Source: Rhizobium skierniewicense (GTDB lineage Bacteria > Pseudomonadota > Alphaproteobacteria > Rhizobiales > Rhizobiaceae). Taken from it: DNA of 64,000 bases. The stretch is taken from NCBI RefSeq assembly GCF_014196515.1, contig NZ_JACIDV010000002.1:1-64000 (forward strand), in the 5' to 3' direction. The position numbers and the translations under genes were made by a program. This document shows positions 13,563 to 51,738 of this stretch, piece after piece; the first letter of the stretch is position 1, and each line of letters begins with the position of its first letter. The notes under the pieces are model-generated. The model saw only the letters and a list, made by a program, of their open reading frames with translations. It was not told the DNA's origin and searched no databases.

Positions 13563-15656
13563 ATGGGACAGACCCGTCTTCTCGAAAGCCGCTGGGACGA
13601 TGCTTACGCTGCAAAGCTCGATGAGCCGGGCAAACTGCTCTATCGCTCCAACCTGCTGGGCGCGGACAAGCGCATCACCAATTACGGTGGCGGAAACACC
13701 TCCGCAAAGGTGCTGGAAACCGATCCTCTAACCGGCGAGAAGGCCCGCGTCATGTGGGTCAAGGGCTCCGGCGGCGATGTCGGCACCATCAAGCTGGATG
13801 GCTTTGCCACGCTCTACATGGACAAGCTGGAAGCATTGAAGGGTATCTACAAGGGTGTGGAAGACGAGGACCGGATGGTCGGGTTTCTTCCCCATTGCAC
13901 CTTCAATCTCAATCCGCGCGCGGCTTCCATCGACACCCCTCTGCACGGTTTCGTGCCGTTCGACCATGTCGATCACATGCACCCGGATGCCATCATCGCC
14001 ATTGCCGCCTCCAAGAATTCGAAAGAATTGACGCAAGAGATTTTCGGGGCTGACATTGGCTGGCTGCCATGGCGTCGTCCCGGCTTCCAGCTCGGTCTCG
14101 ATCTCGAAGCCTTCGTGAAGGCCAATCCCAATTCCAAGGGCGTCGTGCTGGAAAGCCACGGCCTTTTCACCTGGGATAATGATGCGAAGACGTGTTACGA
14201 ACTGACGCTCGCCATCATCAACAAGGCGATCGAATGGTTCGCTGCGAAGACCGAAGGCAAGACCATCTTCGGCGGCGCGGTTGCTAACGCGCTGCCACAG
14301 GCAGAACGCCGCGCCATTGCGGCGCGCTTGATGCCGGAAATTCGTGGCCGCATCGGTCGCGATGAACGCAAGCTTGGCCATTTCGATGATCAGGACGCCG
14401 TTCTGGAATTCGTCAATTCGGTGCAATTGAAGCCACTCGGTGCGCTCGGCACGTCCTGCCCGGACCACTTTCTGCGCACCAAGATCCGTCCACTGATCCT
14501 CGATCTCGACACCGTTAACCCGGATGTGGACGGCGTGGTGGCCGGTCTGGACAAGGCGCTGGAGGATTATCGCGCCGATTACGTCAGGTATTACGAGACC
14601 TGCAAACACGACAATTCACCCAAAATCCGTGATCCGAACCCAGTGATTTTTCTCATCCCCGGCGTCGGCATGCTGTCCTTCGCCAAGGACAAGGCGACCG
14701 CACGCATCGCCGGTGAGTTCTACGTCAACGCCATCAACGTGATGCGCGGCGCATCGACCGTTTCGGAGTATCAGGGTCTTCCCGAGCAGGAAGCCTTCGA
14801 TATCGAATACTGGTTGCTGGAAGAAGCAAAGCTCCAGCGTATGCCCAAGCCGAAAAGCCTTGCAGGCCGCGTGGCCTTCATTACCGGCGGCGCTGGTGGC
14901 ATCGGCCGTGCGACAGCCGAGCGTCTGGCCAGCGAAGGCGCCTGCGTTGTGCTGGCTGACATTGATGAAGCGGCACTTGCAGCCACGAAGGGTGATTTCG
15001 AGAAGCGCTACAGCATGGACGCCGTTCGCAGTGTCACGCTGGATGTGACGAAGGAAGACGCGGTGCTTTCGGCCTTTGTCGGAGCCAGCGTTGAATTTGG
15101 CGGTGTTGATATTCTGGTATCGAATGCCGGTATTGCCTCATCCGCCCCTGTGGAAGACACGACGCTTGCCATGTGGAACAGGAATATCGACATTCTTGCG
15201 ACCGGCTATTTCCTTGTGTCGCGGGAGGCGTTCCGCCTGTTCCGTCGCCAGAATCTTGGTGGCAACGTCGTTTTCGTGGCCTCCAAGAACGGCTTGGCGT
15301 CGTCACCCAATGCGTCCGCTTACTGCACGGCCAAGGCTGCGGAAATTCACCTCGCACGTTGCCTGGCGCTTGAAGGTGCTGACGCCGGTATTCGCGTCAA
15401 CACGGTCAACCCTGACGCAGTTCTGCGCGGTTCGAAAATCTGGAACGGGGAGTGGCGGGAACAACGCGCTGCATCGTCCAAGATCGAAATCGATGATTTG
15501 GAAGAGCATTACAGGAAGCGTTCCATGCTCAAACTGAATGTCTTGCCGGAAGATATTGCCGAGGCGATCTATTTCTTTGCCTCGGATGTTTCGGCCAAGT
15601 CCACGGGCAACATCATCAATGTCGATGCCGGAAATGCGCAGAGCTTCACGCGCTGA
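13563..15656 (+). CDS. rhaD: Bifunctional rhamnulose-1-phosphate aldolase / short-chain dehydrogenase
   Basis: A 697-residue fusion. The N-terminal half is a class II aldolase (about 20-420) that splits rhamnulose 1-phosphate into dihydroxyacetone phosphate and L-lactaldehyde; HCTFNLNP and the histidine-rich FDHVDHMHPDA segment fit its metal site. The C-terminal half (about 430-697) is a short-chain dehydrogenase with VAFITGGAGGIG and the catalytic YCTAK near 585, expected to oxidise lactaldehyde. I chose the second ATG, 8 bases after GGGAGG; an ATG two codons earlier is too close to it. It is divergent from rhaR and precedes rhaI with one opposite small gene between. Confidence 0.9.
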   Translation: MGQTRLLESRWDDAYAAKLDEPGKLLYRSNLLGADKRITNYGGGNTSAKVLETDPLTGEKARVMWVKGSGGDVGTIKLDGFATLYMDKLEALKGIYKGVEDEDRMVGFLPHCTFNLNPRAASIDTPLHGFVPFDHVDHMHPDAIIAIAASKNSKELTQEIFGADIGWLPWRRPGFQLGLDLEAFVKANPNSKGVVLESHGLFTWDNDAKTCYELTLAIINKAIEWFAAKTEGKTIFGGAVANALPQAERRAIAARLMPEIRGRIGRDERKLGHFDDQDAVLEFVNSVQLKPLGALGTSCPDHFLRTKIRPLILDLDTVNPDVDGVVAGLDKALEDYRADYVRYYETCKHDNSPKIRDPNPVIFLIPGVGMLSFAKDKATARIAGEFYVNAINVMRGASTVSEYQGLPEQEAFDIEYWLLEEAKLQRMPKPKSLAGRVAFITGGAGGIGRATAERLASEGACVVLADIDEAALAATKGDFEKRYSMDAVRSVTLDVTKEDAVLSAFVGASVEFGGVDILVSNAGIASSAPVEDTTLAMWNRNIDILATGYFLVSREAFRLFRRQNLGGNVVFVASKNGLASSPNASAYCTAKAAEIHLARCLALEGADAGIRVNTVNPDAVLRGSKIWNGEWREQRAASSKIEIDDLEEHYRKRSMLKLNVLPEDIAEAIYFFASDVSAKSTGNIINVDAGNAQSFTR

Positions 15657-40391: not shown

Positions 40392-40462
40392 GCGGGTGTA
40401 GCTCAATGGTAGAGCAGCAGCTTCCCAAGCTGAATACGAGGGTTCGATTCCCTTCACCCGCT
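40392..40462 (+). tRNA. tRNA-Gly (anticodon CCC), 3' end at prophage junction
   Basis: A cloverleaf with acceptor arm GCGGGTG/CACCCGC, D arm AGCTCAATGGTAGAGC, anticodon loop TTCCCAA and T arm GAGGGTTCGATTCCCTT. It reads GGG. No CCA is encoded: after the discriminator T the sequence is CAGCC, unlike the tRNA-Thr gene in this window which encodes CCA. The prophage begins here, so the original 3' end was probably replaced on integration. Confidence 0.88.
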
Positions 40463-40463
40463 C
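40438..40463 (+). other. Putative attL core
   Basis: The T arm and acceptor 3' strand of tRNA-Gly (40438-40463) form the likely crossover region of the integrase encoded at 41789-42817. A second copy should mark the right end of the prophage outside the window. Confidence 0.55.
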
Positions 40464-44600: not shown

Positions 44601-45178
44601 AGGCGGCGCTCCGTCAGTCCGCGATACGTGGAAAGGAAAACATCTGCCGCCATGTGCGGGTTCTCCCATGGGAAAATCTCGTGTTCGAACGGCTCTGCGG
44701 ATTCCACCCATTCTTCGCCATTCCACGGCATCAGGTCGCGGCGCTCGGTGATGAGCATGCGTGTGTCCAGATGCTTGATATAGGCCGGGTCGGGCATCGT
44801 GACGCCAAAGCGGGCAAGGCCTGCGGCTTCGCAGCGCTTCTCCACACGCTTGTAATCGGGGCAGATGGCTTTGAGCGGAGAGTTGAGGTCGCCGCAAGTT
44901 GCCTCGCTCACATCATGCATGAGCGCTGCCAGTTTGTGCGGCTGGTCGGCATAGTGAGCCATGATAACGCAGTGCTGGGCGATGGAATAATAGACGCGCC
45001 TGCCGGTTTTGCGACTGACGCACTGGCCGGTAAAGCGGGATTGAAAGGCGAGGCTGTAGGCCACGTCCTCAATCGTCAGCTCGGATGCCTCCGGGTTCTC
45101 GAAATTGAAATAGGTGCCGGAACCGAGAAGGATGGTGGGGCCGACGATGCGGCGGATGGGTGCGGATTGGGTGGTCAT
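44597..45178 (-). CDS. HD-domain phosphohydrolase
   Basis: A 193-residue HD protein similar to the YfbR 5'-nucleotidase group. The metal motif includes H in SIAQHCVIMAHY, the HD pair in ALMHDVSEATCGDL and a later acidic residue in KHLDTRML. It probably dephosphorylates deoxynucleotides. It overlaps DnaN and the MazG-like gene, so three nucleotide- or DNA-related enzymes are encoded together. Confidence 0.8.
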   Translation of the reverse strand: MTTQSAPIRRIVGPTILLGSGTYFNFENPEASELTIEDVAYSLAFQSRFTGQCVSRKTGRRVYYSIAQHCVIMAHYADQPHKLAALMHDVSEATCGDLNSPLKAICPDYKRVEKRCEAAGLARFGVTMPDPAYIKHLDTRMLITERRDLMPWNGEEWVESAEPFEHEIFPWENPHMAADVFLSTYRGLTERRL

Positions 45179-46305
45179 GATTTAACCCTCATAGGCATGA
45201 GGATATAATCCTCATCTGCATCGTTGGCTGGTGTGAAGTGACCCGCTGATTCCGGGTCATCCCCGAACATCAGGAATGACGAGCTGGAAATGCTTTCCAG
45301 CGTGTCTTTGACAAGCGCGCCGTTGAAGCCTCGATAGAAGTCTTCACCGTCATACTGGATATCGAGCGCTTCAACGGCAGTCTGCCCGTTTGTGGTGGCG
45401 TATTCGATCTGCATCTGACCACGGGACATCAGGAACTTCGTTGCCTGCGACTTGGTGTCGCCAGCTATCGCCATGACGCGGTTGATGGCCCGCAAGACGG
45501 CATCACGGTCTGCATGAACCTTGATATCGTGGCGTTCCGGTATGATGCGTTCGTAATTCGGAAAGACGCCATCTATCAACTTGGAAACAATGATAGTGTC
45601 ACCGGATTCGAAGACGATCTTGTTCTCGCTGATGAACACCTGGCATTCGTTCTTTGCCTCTCCCATCAGCTTCGAGAAGCTCTTCACCGTGTCGATGGCA
45701 ATGATGGGCGGCTCGAAATCCACCATCTCTGTCGGATTGATACGCGCGACCGCGATCTTGATGCCGTTGCAACCCACGACAGCCAGCTTTCCGTCCGGCA
45801 AGGCGTGAATGTAGGTGCCGGAAAGATGCGGGCGGTCCTTCGTGGTGGTGTTGACCGCGTAGAGCGTTTTCTTGAACGCCGCGTTCAGCACCGTTCCAAC
45901 AATTGAAAATGCCAGGGGCGGGCGCTGCTTTCCCATGGACGGAAAATCCAGCGCAGGCAGGACGTGCAGATTGTAGCGCGAACGACCGCTTGAAATCGTC
46001 ACCTGTCCCTGCGCTTTACCCTCGTGAATGGCAATCTCGGCAGTTTCCGGCATGTTCTTCGCGATGTCGAAAAGCTCCTTGAATCCAATCGTCAGCGCAT
46101 CGCCGTTCCCGGCTTCCAGCAGATCGCAGCGGGTCTCAACCTCAAGATCAAGATTGGTGCCGCGCACAATCAACCGTTCGCCGTCCGGCTGCAAAAGAAC
46201 ATTTTGCAGAATCGGGATTTCATCCTTGCGCGGGATCGCGCCGCTCACAGCACCAAGCGCTGCAAGCAATTCCGTGCGATGGACGCGGAAATACAGTTCA
46301 GCCAT
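45175..46305 (-). CDS. dnaN: Phage DNA polymerase III sliding clamp (beta) paralogue
   Basis: A 376-residue sliding clamp with the three-domain DnaN layout. It begins FRVHRTELLAALGAVSGAIPR with the repeated LVRGTNLDLEVET-type strands (here LIVRGTNLDLEV), and ends ADEDYILMPMRVKS, the family C-terminus. It should form a dimeric ring on DNA and could recruit the host polymerase to phage DNA. A clamp inside the early operon is uncommon among temperate phages, though known in some alphaproteobacterial prophages. Confidence 0.88.
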   Translation of the reverse strand: MAELYFRVHRTELLAALGAVSGAIPRKDEIPILQNVLLQPDGERLIVRGTNLDLEVETRCDLLEAGNGDALTIGFKELFDIAKNMPETAEIAIHEGKAQGQVTISSGRSRYNLHVLPALDFPSMGKQRPPLAFSIVGTVLNAAFKKTLYAVNTTTKDRPHLSGTYIHALPDGKLAVVGCNGIKIAVARINPTEMVDFEPPIIAIDTVKSFSKLMGEAKNECQVFISENKIVFESGDTIIVSKLIDGVFPNYERIIPERHDIKVHADRDAVLRAINRVMAIAGDTKSQATKFLMSRGQMQIEYATTNGQTAVEALDIQYDGEDFYRGFNGALVKDTLESISSSSFLMFGDDPESAGHFTPANDADEDYILMPMRVKS

Positions 46306-47053: not shown

Positions 47054-47236
47054 TCAGGCCGCGATGCGGTCAGCCTTGCGATAAGCGACCGTGCGGGCCT
47101 CTTCGCTGTAGGTTTTGATTTCTGCGCGGGTAAAGCGGTTGGCTAGCTGCTCTTCTGTGCAGCCTTCACCAAGGTCCAACATGGTATCTGCCATGCTGCT
47201 GATGATCTTCAATTCGTCCTGCGTGCGTTCCTGCAT
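47054..47236 (-). CDS. First gene of the leftward early operon, hypothetical
   Basis: A 60-residue helical protein (QDELKIISSMADTMLDLGEG, then TRAEIKTYSEEARTVAYRKA). It is the first gene after the operator-controlled leftward promoter, with a leader of about 95 bases. Its place corresponds to lambda N, but no arginine-rich antiterminator motif is seen at the N-terminus. Function unknown. Confidence 0.6.
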   Translation of the reverse strand: MQERTQDELKIISSMADTMLDLGEGCTEEQLANRFTRAEIKTYSEEARTVAYRKADRIAA

Positions 47237-47338: not shown

Positions 47339-47367
47339 AACATAAGGCGGAAATAATTCCGCGTCAA
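47339..47367 (-). promoter_or_regulatory. Leftward early phage promoter (PL-like)
   Basis: Reading leftward, TTGACG (47362-47367) and TATGTT (47339-47344) are exactly 17 bases apart. Operator O1 fills the spacer, so repressor binding there would block RNA polymerase. It drives the early operon from 47236 leftward. Confidence 0.75.
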
Positions 47368-47392
47368 TATCGAATAGCGGAAATCTTTCCGC
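47347..47392. promoter_or_regulatory. Operators O1 and O2 of the phage repressor
   Basis: GCGGAAATAATTCCGC (47347-47362) and GCGGAAATCTTTCCGC (47377-47392) are perfect six-base-arm palindromes 30 bp centre to centre. Three more copies of the same motif flank the repressor start. Confidence 0.8.
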
Positions 47393-47404
47393 CTTTAATG
47401 TATG

Positions 47405-47431
47405 AAAAAACCCCGTTGGTTAGACGGGGTT
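47405..47431 (-). terminator. Terminator of the repressor operon
   Basis: AACCCCGT/ACGGGGTT (47409-47416 with 47424-47431) followed, reading leftward, by a T run. It separates the repressor operon from the PL-like operators. Confidence 0.75.
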
Positions 47432-47455
47432 GACTCAGATATTCAACATTCAATT

Positions 47456-47809
47456 CTAGCTGAAGAAGATTACTATGTCGTGCCAGCGCGTAAGTAGTGT
47501 CAATACACCGACCGCTAAGGAAATTATTGCGGCCATTTTTGCAGTAGTTGGGAGGCTATCGACTCGGCCTTTTAATTCCCCGAAAGCTACGGCGGATGGA
47601 GCCGACCGCAACATGCCTTTAATTTCGGCAGTGTCTTGCAGTAGCCTTTTCATGTCATCTTCGAGGGCTCTTACGCGTGGTTCCATGCCGTCAAATGTGC
47701 CACCGCCACCGCCCGACTTCAAGGTTTTTATCTCTGTCAGTTCCTTTAGCTTAGCTTCTTGGCTGTCGTGCAGTCTGGTAAAAAGGTTCACGACATTGTT
47801 TTCACTCAT
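47456..47809 (-). CDS. Membrane-anchored protein cotranscribed with the repressor
   Basis: A 117-residue protein: coiled-coil-like N-terminal half (RLHDSQEAKLKELTEIKTLK), a glycine run, a second helix (RVRALEDDMKRLLQDTAEIK) and a C-terminal hydrophobic helix (about 92-116). The plan resembles small phage membrane proteins with a soluble coiled coil. It overlaps the preceding gene by 8 bases and ends the CI operon, so it is expected to be made in the lysogen. A role in exclusion of other phages is possible but unproven. Confidence 0.6.
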   Translation of the reverse strand: MSENNVVNLFTRLHDSQEAKLKELTEIKTLKSGGGGGTFDGMEPRVRALEDDMKRLLQDTAEIKGMLRSAPSAVAFGELKGRVDSLPTTAKMAAIISLAVGVLTLLTRWHDIVIFFS

Positions 47810-48101
47810 GGTCAGCGACTTCGACGTTCGCTTTTTTAAGCAATTCCTGTGTCTGTATGCTTATGTAGTTGCTTGAGTTTTGGAATGTCTCGCCAAATTT
47901 TCTGAGCTTTTCATCCAAGGACACGTTTGATACCATTGCGCTCAATGCGCCCATTGCATCGAGTATTGCTTCTTGTTGTAGTGCCATTGCGGTGTAAACC
48001 TTAAGTAAGTCACCCTCCGAGGCTGGTTCTCTAAGTTTAGGAGTTAGGCTCTCAACGTTGACTAGAATTTTTTCGTAGTCATATTCTTGCCTCATCATCA
48101 C
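47802..48101 (-). CDS. Hypothetical protein cotranscribed with the repressor
   Basis: A 99-residue soluble helical protein (DYEKILVNVESLTPKLREPA, then LLKVYTAMALQQEAILDAMG). It overlaps the repressor gene by four bases and the next gene by eight. Expression in the lysogen is expected from its place. No family recognised. Confidence 0.6.
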   Translation of the reverse strand: MMMRQEYDYEKILVNVESLTPKLREPASEGDLLKVYTAMALQQEAILDAMGALSAMVSNVSLDEKLRKFGETFQNSSNYISIQTQELLKKANVEVADHE

Positions 48102-48892
48102 ATCCTCGAAAAGCGACCGACGACGCGGCCTAAAATTCTGAATTCGTCATGCTGTAATTCGTCATAGCGGTCGGGGGATGCCTCAGAGATTATCCGAAAT
48201 CTCGCTGGGTTTGATCCGGACATTTTGCTTAGTGTTTTGACTTTCAGTACGTCATCACCGTCGCTGAACACATAGATTGCATCACCAACATAGGCTGCTT
48301 GAGAAATATCGACCATAACCCGGTCGCCAGCGTATAGGCGGGGCTCCATAGAGTGCCCGACAACCGGAACGATAATTATCTGCGAAGGTTGGGCACCCAG
48401 CCCGTGCCGAACGAAATCCGCAGGTATCAGCCATTCGCTGCTTACTGGGTGACCAGAAGCAATACCGTTGGTCTCGATACGAGCTAAACGATCCTCAATG
48501 ATGTGACCCTGACCAGCGCCAGCGGCGGCAGGGACTTCGGGTGACGCCCCGGCTACTCGGCCTTTATATTGCAACCGACCATCAATAACGCCCATGGAGG
48601 GCAAACCGTCATCCCAATCTGCGTCTTGCCCGCGTGATTCGGGCGCATCTGGATCGAAGCTAGAGATCAGTTTTCTCTCACCGTCATTGATCCCCTTGAG
48701 TAAATATTGCTCTGAAACCCCCAAAACATCAGCCAAACCCGAAAGCGATTTGACCGAAGGTTTCTGTTCAGGGTTAGCAAGTAACTTTCGAACAGTATCC
48801 TTATCTAGGCCCGCCGCTTTTGAAATTGCTTGGGGTTTCAACGGGCTAGCCTCGACAAGCCGTGTGAATCGTTCGTGAAAAGTTTCGCTCAT
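48098..48892 (-). CDS. CI/LexA-like phage repressor with S24 peptidase domain
   Basis: A 264-residue repressor. The N-terminal helix-turn-helix (about 10-60) contains PQAISKAAGLDKDTVRKLL. The C-terminal S24 peptidase domain carries the nucleophile S181 (VVGHSMEP) and the general-base lysine K217 (DDVLKVKT). An Ala-Gly pair at 114-115 (RVAGAS) is a candidate self-cleavage site, so induction by RecA is likely. The ATG at 48892 is used because operators lie just upstream and the longer frame would run through them. It should bind the five GCGGAA-N4-TTCCGC sites. Confidence 0.9.
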   Translation of the reverse strand: MSETFHERFTRLVEASPLKPQAISKAAGLDKDTVRKLLANPEQKPSVKSLSGLADVLGVSEQYLLKGINDGERKLISSFDPDAPESRGQDADWDDGLPSMGVIDGRLQYKGRVAGASPEVPAAAGAGQGHIIEDRLARIETNGIASGHPVSSEWLIPADFVRHGLGAQPSQIIIVPVVGHSMEPRLYAGDRVMVDISQAAYVGDAIYVFSDGDDVLKVKTLSKMSGSNPARFRIISEASPDRYDELQHDEFRILGRVVGRFSRM

Positions 48893-48894
48893 AT

Positions 48895-48967
48895 GCGGAA
48901 TATTATCCGCATTTTGAAAGTTGGGAATGCGGAAACAATTCCGTTGACGAGGCGGAAATCTTTCCGT
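48895..48967. promoter_or_regulatory. Operators O3, O4 and O5 of the phage repressor
   Basis: GCGGAATATTATCCGC (48895-48910), GCGGAAACAATTCCGT (48929-48944) and GCGGAAATCTTTCCGT (48952-48967) repeat the O1/O2 motif with one or two changes. O3 abuts the repressor start, O4 touches the -35 and O5 fills the spacer of the rightward promoter. Confidence 0.8.
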
Positions 48968-48972
48968 ATTTT
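48944..48972 (+). promoter_or_regulatory. Rightward early phage promoter (PR-like)
   Basis: TTGACG (48944-48949) and TATTTT (48967-48972) are exactly 17 bases apart with O5 between them. The predicted start of transcription (about 48979) is at the next ATG, 48981. Confidence 0.75.
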
Positions 48973-49460: not shown

Positions 49461-49937
49461 GTGCGCACTATTTCCGATGAAGAACGACGCGAGCTGAAAA
49501 GCGCGACAGAAACCGCCTACAAGTTGGGTGGTGGCGTGACCGACTTCCCGCATCTCACGCGCGTCAATGTTTCGACGCTCTCGAAGTACGCCAGCTTCAA
49601 CGACGAAAATCAGGAAAACTTCATTCCGATTGATGTCGCAATCGAAGCGGATCGCCGCGCGAAAAGCCCCGTTATCATAAGTGCTATGGCCCGGAAGCTT
49701 GGCTACCGGCTGATCGTCGATGACGAAATCCAACAAGAGCGCCGCGCCATCTGCCAGTCCGATTCTATCGACCTGATGACCGAAGTCATGGATGTAATCC
49801 GCGTGGTGAAAGAAGCGGAAGAGACCGGAACGCTCGGAACGGCGGCTGTGGCTAAGCGCATCACCAAAGAGGCGCACGAGGCGATCCGCGAACTGAAAGA
49901 GTTGATCGTCAATGCCAAGCAAGGCGGTGCGAGATGA
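49461..49937 (+). CDS. CII-like phage regulatory protein (tentative)
   Basis: A 158-residue helical protein starting at GTG, 7 bases after AGGGG. The N-terminal half (ELKSATETAYKLGGGVTDFP, then RVNVSTLSKYAS) resembles phage regulators such as the CP76 family, with an acidic helical tail (KEAEETGTLG and onward). It lies where cII lies in lambda. The regulatory function is inferred. Confidence 0.55.
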   Translation: MRTISDEERRELKSATETAYKLGGGVTDFPHLTRVNVSTLSKYASFNDENQENFIPIDVAIEADRRAKSPVIISAMARKLGYRLIVDDEIQQERRAICQSDSIDLMTEVMDVIRVVKEAEETGTLGTAAVAKRITKEAHEAIRELKELIVNAKQGGAR

Positions 49938-50152
49938 CCGCTGCGATGTTCCAGCCCGAAACCCGTGATGCGCGCATGTCGCGGTTCGACGCGTTGCCGC
50001 CCGCCGTTCGTCAATCCATCAACGCTGCGTCATTCGAGTTTCACCCTGGCATGGCGGAACGCCTCTTGCGGCGCGGCGCAACCGAACAGGGATGCGCGGC
50101 CCGGATCGCGATTACTGATTTGGGCTTGATGGCCCGGAAGGGTGGTGCGTGA
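49934..50152 (+). CDS. Hypothetical small phage protein
   Basis: A 72-residue protein (RFDALPPAVRQSINAASFEF, then RRGATEQGCAARIAITDLGL). It overlaps both neighbours (ATGA at its start, TGATG at its end). Such short proteins precede ParB/methyltransferase genes in related prophages; function unknown. Confidence 0.6.
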   Translation: MTAAMFQPETRDARMSRFDALPPAVRQSINAASFEFHPGMAERLLRRGATEQGCAARIAITDLGLMARKGGA

Positions 50153-51738
50153 TGGCCGCTCAAACCCACCCTATGCTTGGTGCGAATGGATTGAGCATTG
50201 TTGCAGCAGCTGTCCGCGACGGCGAGTTTCATTGCAAAAGCCACAATGACCGTGTTTCGGCTGCGTCTGCAATGGCGCACCGTTATCTGACGCGGGATGC
50301 AAAGGACAGCAATCTGTTCCGCCCCGGCGACAATGCTGCTGATTTGCTGGACCGGGCGCGGACGCTCGGCAAACTGCCTGATGCAGATGCTGCCAGCCTG
50401 CCGGAACGCAAGGTGGCGACGGTTCGCGATCCGCAAACCGTCGATGCCGGAAACCGACTGCGCAATCTGGATGAAGGCACCGTTCTCGCGCTGATGGAAT
50501 CCTTCAAGGCCTACAGCCAGCAACAGCCTATTGTAGTCTACGGCAGGGAGGCTGATGCCGTGGTTCGCCTCGGTGCTGGTGGGCACAGACTAGAAGCCAG
50601 CCGCCGTCTCGGCATCAAGGTTCTTTGCTTCCATGCCGATGGCGACGAACTGGATCGCCAGCTTTGCGAGATTGACGAAAACCTCATCCGTGCGGACCTA
50701 ACGCCATCCGACAAGGCGCTGTTTTTGGCGCGGCGCAAGGAAATCTATCTGATCAAGCACCCTGAAACGGCAAAGGGAGCGGCGCAGGCGAACGCCTCGA
50801 ACGCAGCACAAGGACGTGGCGGACAAATTGTCCGTGACGCCAAAACCTTTACGGCGGCGACGGCGCAAGCAACCGGACAGGACGAGCGCACCATTCGTCG
50901 CGATGTCGAGCGCGGAGAAAAGATTTCCGTCGCCGCAATCCAGATGCTGCGCGGAACTGTCCACGATAAGGGTGTGACCCTAGACAAGCTCAAACGATTG
51001 GAAACGCCGGAAGCACAAATGGTGTTTGCGCGCGAACTTATCGCGTCGGACCGTGCGAAAAAAGCCGAAACGAAGGAAATGCGCACGGCGGAACAGGCCA
51101 GCAACCGCGAATCGCGGATGCGCATGGTCAACCTGATTGCAGATCATGGACGCAAGTCCGGTTATGCCATGCCGCGCGCCGCCTATCCCATCGGTTATGC
51201 GGACCCGCCCTGGCAACAAGAGGCCTGGAGCGATGAAACAGGGCAGGACAAGGGGCTGAAATATCCGTCCATGACGGTTGAGGCCATCAAGGCGTTGTGC
51301 GCTGGCGACAAATCGCCGTTCACACGTGACGCGGTGCTTCTGCTTTGGGTGACTGCCAACCGCCTGCCAGATGGCATCGCCGTTCTGGAAGCATGGGGCT
51401 TCGAATTTGTCACGTCGCTGGTTTGGGACAAGGTGAACATCGGCATGGGCCGGTGGACGCGCGACCGCCACGAAATCCTGCTGATCGGCAAGCGCGGCAC
51501 GATTTCGCTCGCACCCTTGCCGGGTACGCAGCCGCAAAGTGTTCACGCCGAACCGAAGACGGAGCATAGCCGCAAGCCGGTTTGGTATGCCGAACAGATA
51601 GACCGGCTGTGGCCGGGAATGCGCAAGCTCGAACTTTTCCAACGCAAGGGCAGCCTCGCCGAAGGCGATATTCGCCTGAACGGCATGTGGGATTTTTGGG
51701 GTAATCAAGCCGGATCGCCGGAAAGCGAGGTGGCGTAA
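50152..51738 (+). CDS. ParB-like / MT-A70 adenine methyltransferase fusion
   Basis: A 528-residue two-part protein. The N-terminal part (about 85-300) is ParB-like: GAGGHRLEASRRLG (141-154), EIDENLIRADLTPSDKALFL (173-192) and the recognition helix GQDERTIRRDVERGEKIS. The C-terminal part (about 340-520) is an MT-A70 methyltransferase with the catalytic DPPW (351-354), a LLLWVTANRLPDGIAVLEAW strand and a WSRDRHEI-like stretch (here WTRDRHEILLIGKRG). It should bind DNA and methylate adenine N6. It overlaps the PAPS-reductase-like gene by one base (TAATG). Confidence 0.88.
   Translation: MAAQTHPMLGANGLSIVAAAVRDGEFHCKSHNDRVSAASAMAHRYLTRDAKDSNLFRPGDNAADLLDRARTLGKLPDADAASLPERKVATVRDPQTVDAGNRLRNLDEGTVLALMESFKAYSQQQPIVVYGREADAVVRLGAGGHRLEASRRLGIKVLCFHADGDELDRQLCEIDENLIRADLTPSDKALFLARRKEIYLIKHPETAKGAAQANASNAAQGRGGQIVRDAKTFTAATAQATGQDERTIRRDVERGEKISVAAIQMLRGTVHDKGVTLDKLKRLETPEAQMVFARELIASDRAKKAETKEMRTAEQASNRESRMRMVNLIADHGRKSGYAMPRAAYPIGYADPPWQQEAWSDETGQDKGLKYPSMTVEAIKALCAGDKSPFTRDAVLLLWVTANRLPDGIAVLEAWGFEFVTSLVWDKVNIGMGRWTRDRHEILLIGKRGTISLAPLPGTQPQSVHAEPKTEHSRKPVWYAEQIDRLWPGMRKLELFQRKGSLAEGDIRLNGMWDFWGNQAGSPESEVA

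Follow-up and report, generated by a model that had tools for sequence, protein, structure and literature searches.

Introduction

Does the prophage at this locus of Rhizobium skierniewicense carry a lambda-type immunity switch, and how much of that switch is shared with other phages? Few lambda-type switches have been characterized in detail by experiment. A sequence-only reading of the window (the whole 64,000-nucleotide stretch of DNA analyzed here) had proposed a complete operator and promoter switch of an undescribed prophage repressor. The word undescribed stands: a search by title and the start of the abstract, which covered mostly papers outside subscription, returned no description of this switch.

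PMC12429752 finds that phiLM21-like prophages lack operators resembling the lambda or 16-3 ones, grants that these prophages may have different operators, and infers a loss of regulation in some of the prophages. A second paper reports no recognizable operators in a Brucella phage. CI and Cro-like genes are named in PMC5537653, and the word "operator" is absent from the accessible parts of that paper and of PMC5492332 and PMC8566455.

Results

Five palindromes lie at the early promoters of the window

The sequence-only reading was built on five palindromes of the form GCGGAA-N4-TTCCGC, placed in two regions only, the leftward early promoter and the interval between the repressor and the Cro-position gene. 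We found all five (Table 1), but only O1 and O2 are exact, and O3, O4, and O5 carry one mismatch each. Measured start to start, O1 and O2 are 30 bp apart, O3 and O4 34 bp, and O4 and O5 23 bp. The five sites are clustered as proposed; however, the motif is not confined to these two places, as two more copies with at most one mismatch lie at window positions 13690 and 15221. The two promoter-like sequences agreed with the proposal in full: PR reads TTGACG-17-TATTTT (48944-48972) and PL reads TTGACG-17-TATGTT (47367-47339, minus strand), each with an operator in its spacer. A consensus scan recovered both of them, and it returned 6 promoter-like sites in 2.5 kb versus a shuffle mean of 2.3. Judged by eye, the -35 element of the repressor promoter PRM is poor. 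O3, assigned to the repressor start in the sequence-only reading, is 2 bp away from the start codon of that gene.

Table 1. Features of the putative switch, in window coordinates
Feature	Position	Strand	Remarks
Operator O1	47347-47362		exact GCGGAA-N4-TTCCGC palindrome; inside PL spacer
Operator O2	47377-47392		exact palindrome; 30 bp from O1
Operator O3	48895-48910		one mismatch; contains PRM -10
Operator O4	48929-48944		one mismatch; center 44 bp from repressor ATG
Operator O5	48952-48967		one mismatch; inside PR spacer
PL -10, TATGTT	47339-47344	-	
PL -35, TTGACG	47362-47367	-	
PR -35, TTGACG	48944-48949	+	
PR -10, TATTTT	48967-48972	+	
PRM -10, GATAAT	48902-48907	-	9 bases from repressor ATG
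Intrinsic-terminator-like stem-loop	47409-47431	-	end of repressor operon, before O2 and O1
60-aa gene	47054-47236	-	phrog_22869, unknown function; first in leftward early transcript
117-aa gene	47456-47809	-	repressor operon, rex-like position; hydrophobic C terminus (by eye)
99-aa gene	47802-48101	-	repressor operon
CI-like repressor, 264 aa	48098-48892	-	HTH_3 and Peptidase_S24; recognition helix ..KDTVRKLL
Cro-position protein, 88 aa	48981-49247	+	phrog_7669, unknown function
CII-like regulator	49461-49937	+	PF06892, phrog_101

The bare motif is not what distinguishes the locus. With up to 3 mismatches allowed, the window contains 62 matches versus a shuffle mean of 54, and 17 of 100 shuffles had as many; this loose scan is uninformative, and the motif is then no commoner than chance. 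The 4.8-Mb genome was tested by pattern matching, with the reversed pattern as the control. The exact motif occurs in 3 places, 2 of which are O1 and O2, and the reversed control in 5. The tight core CGGAAWNNWTTCCG occurs in 8 places versus 2 for its reversed control; four of the eight are O1, O2, O4, and O5, all within 1.6 kb, and the others are scattered singles. O3 is the only one of the five sites that does not fit the tight core. Because only 8 tight-core places exist and 4 of them are operators, the genome does not hold many equally good copies elsewhere. It is the clustering and the geometry of the sites, rather than the motif itself, that go far beyond chance.

The genes have the arrangement of a lambda-type switch

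We recognized a lambda-type CI/Cro switch by a repressor gene divergent from a small rightward gene with promoters facing apart, by a repressor with a helix-turn-helix (HTH) and an S24 peptidase domain, and by one palindromic operator type repeated at both early promoters; the locus has each of these traits. The repressor, P0001, scored above the cut-off for Peptidase_S24, and its HTH_3 match had an E value of 1.2e-4, 0.5 bit below the cut-off of that family. Its best PHROG is phrog_4, transcriptional repressor, and the sequences GHSMEP and VAGAS were seen in it by eye. A search by sequence at E values up to 0.01 matched no solved structure. The Cro-position protein is predicted to adopt a small helical fold that resembles HTH proteins of the Cro/C1 type; in an alignment of 62 members, each Pfam family was matched by at most one member (E up to 0.1). 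None of five proteins searched against the NCBIfam models reached a cut-off.

Two further small genes in the repressor operon (47456-48101) lie where lambda has rexAB. Among 146 panel loci, one of them matches only the window's own contig and the other matches one further locus, and neither has a PADLOC match at E values up to 0.1. They are candidates for an exclusion or lysogenic-conversion function. The 60-aa leftward gene has matches in 19 of the 146 panel loci, including the window's own contig (L122). Farther in the leftward direction lie a DnaN-like clamp gene and an integrase gene. The prophage has its own DnaN-like sliding clamp (45175-46305); RR1-A, AmM-1, Rivra, and Psul1 also have a clamp gene annotated on the left side of the switch. 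A tRNA-Gly (ccc) gene at 40392-40463, ∼1.3 kb from the integrase, is a possible attachment site. On the other side of the switch, a 529-aa protein (50149-51738) has a ParB-like match and an MT-A70 methyltransferase match within a single chain.

The geometry recurs in relatives with other operator sequences

Matches to the repressor were found in 19 of 199 family genomes, and matches to the Cro-position protein in 41 of 394, the window's own genome being included in both counts. Scans with the repressor returned no relative among genome contigs and, among viral contigs, solely the window's own prophage. We assembled a first set of 59 loci (58 fetched stretches, phi2LM21, and the window, minus L038, which had no hit). 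A second set of 68 distinct IMG/VR loci was found with the Cro-position protein; 80 of 155 relatives were taken, from which we dropped the window's own contig (1), loci with too little left DNA (4), and loci with identical intergenic DNA (7). Palindrome pairs were searched freely, with any 6-base arm, a spacer of 0-7, and a pair distance of 18-45 bp, in the intergenic region and then again leftward. The simulations preserved dinucleotide content only, and the seeds of the first-set simulations were unfixed. A first exploratory palindrome search, run under different rules, is left out of all counts.

A palindrome score of at least 42 was reached by 27 of 59 loci versus 3 of 1475 simulations in the first set, and by 35 of 68 viral loci versus 0 of 1360 in the second. 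Where both pairs were present in the first set, the right pair was 22-24 bp apart in 33 of 47 loci (18 of 152 simulated) and the left pair 28-31 bp apart in 37 of 47 (21 of 152). Both distances were kept in 28 of these 47 loci versus 4 of 152 simulated, and in the second set in 34 of 46 loci with both pairs versus 2 of 81. Because many loci are close relatives, these counts are not counts of independent events; there are 55 distinct motif calls, of which 30 show both distances. The free search missed the full geometry in about half of the loci (31 of 59 and 34 of 68), six of which were later resolved by motif transfer (see below). Operator sequences differ greatly among loci that share the left and right distances. 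The switch in the window is therefore one member of a wide family, which could not be seen from the window alone, and the proposed combination of repressor, operators, and promoters gains from a layout that recurs with operators of different sequence.

We then read the 62 loci with both distances, which had been picked by the geometry of O1, O2, O4, and O5 only; the subsets of 30, 38, and 75 loci used below were also picked by geometry. TTGAC lies between O4 and O5 in 57 of the 62 loci and between O2 and O1 in 53. The best third site in the interval -70 to -18 falls 33-35 bp from O4, the place of O3, in 50 loci. At that place, a minus-strand -10 hexamer with 5-6 of 6 matches was present in 40 of 62 loci versus 37 of 496 control readings of other operators. 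A repressor ATG lies 43-45 bp from the O4 center in 55 loci, a count biased by choosing the ATG nearest 44. Between the PRM -10 and the ATG there are 6-7 bases in 47 loci and 9 in the window, and the first ATG after O5 is 18-22 bp from the O5 center in 54. Since the ATGs follow so closely behind the -10 and O5, the repressor and Cro-position messages are predicted to start at or near the ATG, which would put O4 about where OR2 stands relative to PRM in lambda.

Of 2.9 million viral contigs, 12 contain exact GCGGAA pairs at a gap of 12-15 bp. The window's own contig is one of these, and each of the 12 belongs to this switch family and has the 30-bp spacing. A wider gap of 16-46 was seen in one contig, and 12 named genome contigs carry pairs at a 12-15 gap; none of these 13 contigs with a bare pair matched either the repressor or the Cro-position protein at E values up to 0.01.

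Operator sequence co-varies with the DNA-binding domain of the repressor

Across 38 loci, operator similarity correlated with similarity of the recognition helix (Mantel, 0.63) and of the rest of the N terminus (0.58), versus 0.07 (p 0.11) for the repressor C-terminal domain. In partial Mantel tests, the helix retained 0.47 with the rest held fixed, and the rest of the N terminus 0.38 with the helix held fixed. Linkage alone does not make this correlation, because the C-terminal part of the gene lies between both operator clusters. In 30 loci, the operator also followed the Cro-position protein (0.53, and 0.44 with the repressor helix held fixed), and in the same loci it followed the repressor helix at 0.44, a value that fell to 0.31 once the Cro-position protein was fixed. 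Similarity of the Cro-position protein correlated weakly with that of the repressor C-terminal domain (0.29). Given this value and the 0.38 for the rest of the N terminus, common descent may account for part of the specificity signal. The Mantel permutations treat loci as exchangeable and so control for ancestry only in part.

The same co-variation was apparent in 75 loci whose helix and operator classes were written after the data were seen. The half-site consensus GCGGAA was found in 15 of them, the window included and several near-identical, and all 15 have an RKLL helix. Of the 18 loci with an RKLL or PKLL helix, 16 have a GCGGAA-type operator, and the other two have GCGGAC and ACGGAA; three GCGGAA-type operators pair with other helices. 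Furthermore, a matrix built from four relatives of helix class RSYFRKLFER was applied where the free search had failed. This transferred motif found operators in 6 of the 6 loci tried (of 13 in the class). In all six, the three top-ranked sites were O5 and the two members of an OL pair spaced 30-31 bp; among the seven sites listed, O3 was recovered in all six and O4 in four. The reading of a CI-like switch thus gains on two counts: the promoter parts keep their place, and the operator tracks the DNA-binding domain of the repressor, not its C-terminal domain.

Comparison with lambda and with isolated phages

The lambda switch shares with the window a repressor gene divergent from a cro-position gene, an operator in each early promoter spacer, a second operator that abuts the PR -35, an operator at about -42 from the repressor start, and a repressor with an HTH and an S24-type C terminus. 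Lambda has three left operators about 20 bp apart, whereas the window has two at 30 bp (28-31 bp in relatives). The O3-O4 distance is 34 bp, with the PRM -10 inside O3, and the corresponding lambda spacing is about 23. Also unlike lambda, the cro-position gene here starts within about 10 bases of its -10, and its product has no Pfam match.

The record of Rhizobium phage 16-3 annotates operators at both early promoters beside the C repressor gene, as in the window. However, its left pair is 17 bp apart and its right pair 26 bp, with no third right operator annotated; the window, spaced at 30, 34, and 23 bp and with three right sites in all, is not of the 16-3 type. Our operator finder gave nothing above chance in 16-3 (16 of 60 simulations as good). 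The Sinorhizobium phages phi2LM21 and phiLM21 have a divergent pair of CI-like and Cro-like genes (PMC5537653). The phi2LM21 repressor matches P0001 at 35% over 71%. In phi2LM21 the finder returned a TTACGC motif with a score of 41 and a left pair 30 bp apart as in the window, but a right pair 38 bp apart; in phiLM21 no layout reached significance, since 2 of 60 simulations did as well.

Five isolated phages, RR1-A, AmM-1, phiAX1, RHph_N3_2, and Rivra, carry a relative of the Cro-position protein. Each has a left pair 29-32 bp apart together with right operators, and in each case 0 of 60 simulations were as good. The right pair is 22-24 bp apart in RR1-A, AmM-1, RHph_N3_2, and Rivra; phiAX1 has its left pair at 31 bp and differs in its right sites, which are 35 and 34 bp apart. 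A third right site was returned by the finder in AmM-1, phiAX1, and RHph_N3_2 and seen by eye in RR1-A and Rivra. Unlike in the window, their operators are of CGTATT, GCGGCT, TGCGGG, CGGTAA, and TGGGAT types, and the stretches read of their records carry no operator annotation. Paracoccus phage Psul1 reached a score of 42, equaled in 0 of 60 simulations, but with other distances (25 and 34 bp). The record of vB_PeaS-P1 stops about 1.3 kb to the left of the gene, and this phage was left out of the comparison. In the Mu-like ThpS-P1 (L116 4560-4640), GGTAAC-type palindromes lie at the repressor promoter region, with right sites only and no left pair found. A tRNA gene directly follows the Cro-position gene in RR1-A (tRNA-Met, L111 6769-6845) and Rivra (tRNA-Leu, L117 6758-6833).

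Discussion

We conclude that the locus is very probably the immunity switch of an integrated temperate phage, of lambda type with a geometry of its own. The co-variation of the operator with the DNA-binding domain suggests that the repressor binds these sites, and we propose the following mechanism. A repressor dimer would bind the five operators and, at O1 and O5, cover the -35/-10 spacers and turn off the leftward and rightward lytic transcripts, assisted through cooperative binding by the adjacent O2 and O4. O4 is centered 44 bp away from the start codon of the repressor gene, a position from which bound repressor may activate its own promoter. Because O3 contains the -10 of that promoter, the repressor at high level would shut itself off; repression and autoregulation would thus both be exerted by the CI-like protein. 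The left and right operators may also be brought together by OL-OR looping. The small rightward gene stands in the place of Cro, and its product is probably a competitor for these operators. Self-cleavage of the S24 domain, triggered by the SOS response, would release the switch.

Could the palindromes have arisen by chance near two AT-rich promoters? In the window, the motif with 3 mismatches or fewer does not exceed chance, and in the genome the reversed control is as common as the motif. The distances, however, are kept in two sets of loci far above simulations, which speaks strongly against chance, and the motif transfer succeeded in 6 of 6 loci; we regard this explanation as hardly credible. 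It is also highly improbable that the palindromes serve chiefly the Cro-position protein or a host regulator and that the repressor acts elsewhere. For the Cro-position protein, operator similarity follows it more closely (0.53 and 0.44 with the helix fixed) than it follows the helix (0.44 and 0.31) in the 30 loci, but the helix still counts for 0.31 once the Cro-position protein is fixed, and a single helix type is common to the 15 loci that have GCGGAA half-sites. Were a host regulator the binding protein, a different sequence in each prophage would be unexpected, and the host genome has just 4 other tight-core copies.

A simpler switch, with genuine operators but neither activation of PRM from O4 nor autoregulation through O3, deserves more weight and still seems unlikely to us. 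It would fit O3 being alone among the five in missing the tight core, and the record of phage 16-3 annotates only two right operators. Against it, 50 of 62 loci keep the place of O3, 40 of 62 have a -10 within it, and in 55 of 62 the distance between O4 and the repressor ATG is 43-45 bp. We therefore retain the lambda-type switch with an activating O4 and an autoregulatory O3 as the preferred reading.

Beyond this prophage, we think it likely that alphaproteobacterial phages share one chassis, composed of two left and three right operators at near-fixed distances and predicted near-leaderless messages for the repressor and the Cro-position protein, and that operators and DNA-binding domains have been exchanged on it as matched pairs, many times over, such that the helix predicts the operator. 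Some prophages without recognized operators may then use other sequences. As the operator and the DNA-binding domain change together while the geometry is largely kept, each phage would have its own immunity. If the chassis reading is true, immunity groups would be readable from sequence, since the helix predicts the operator. The near-constant geometry combined with many operator sequences offers a natural experiment in DNA recognition by repressor helices. Because the layout recurs with other docking sequences, the fit of repressor to site can be predicted and tested. Overall, the homoimmunity of rhizobial and related phages would become predictable from sequence.
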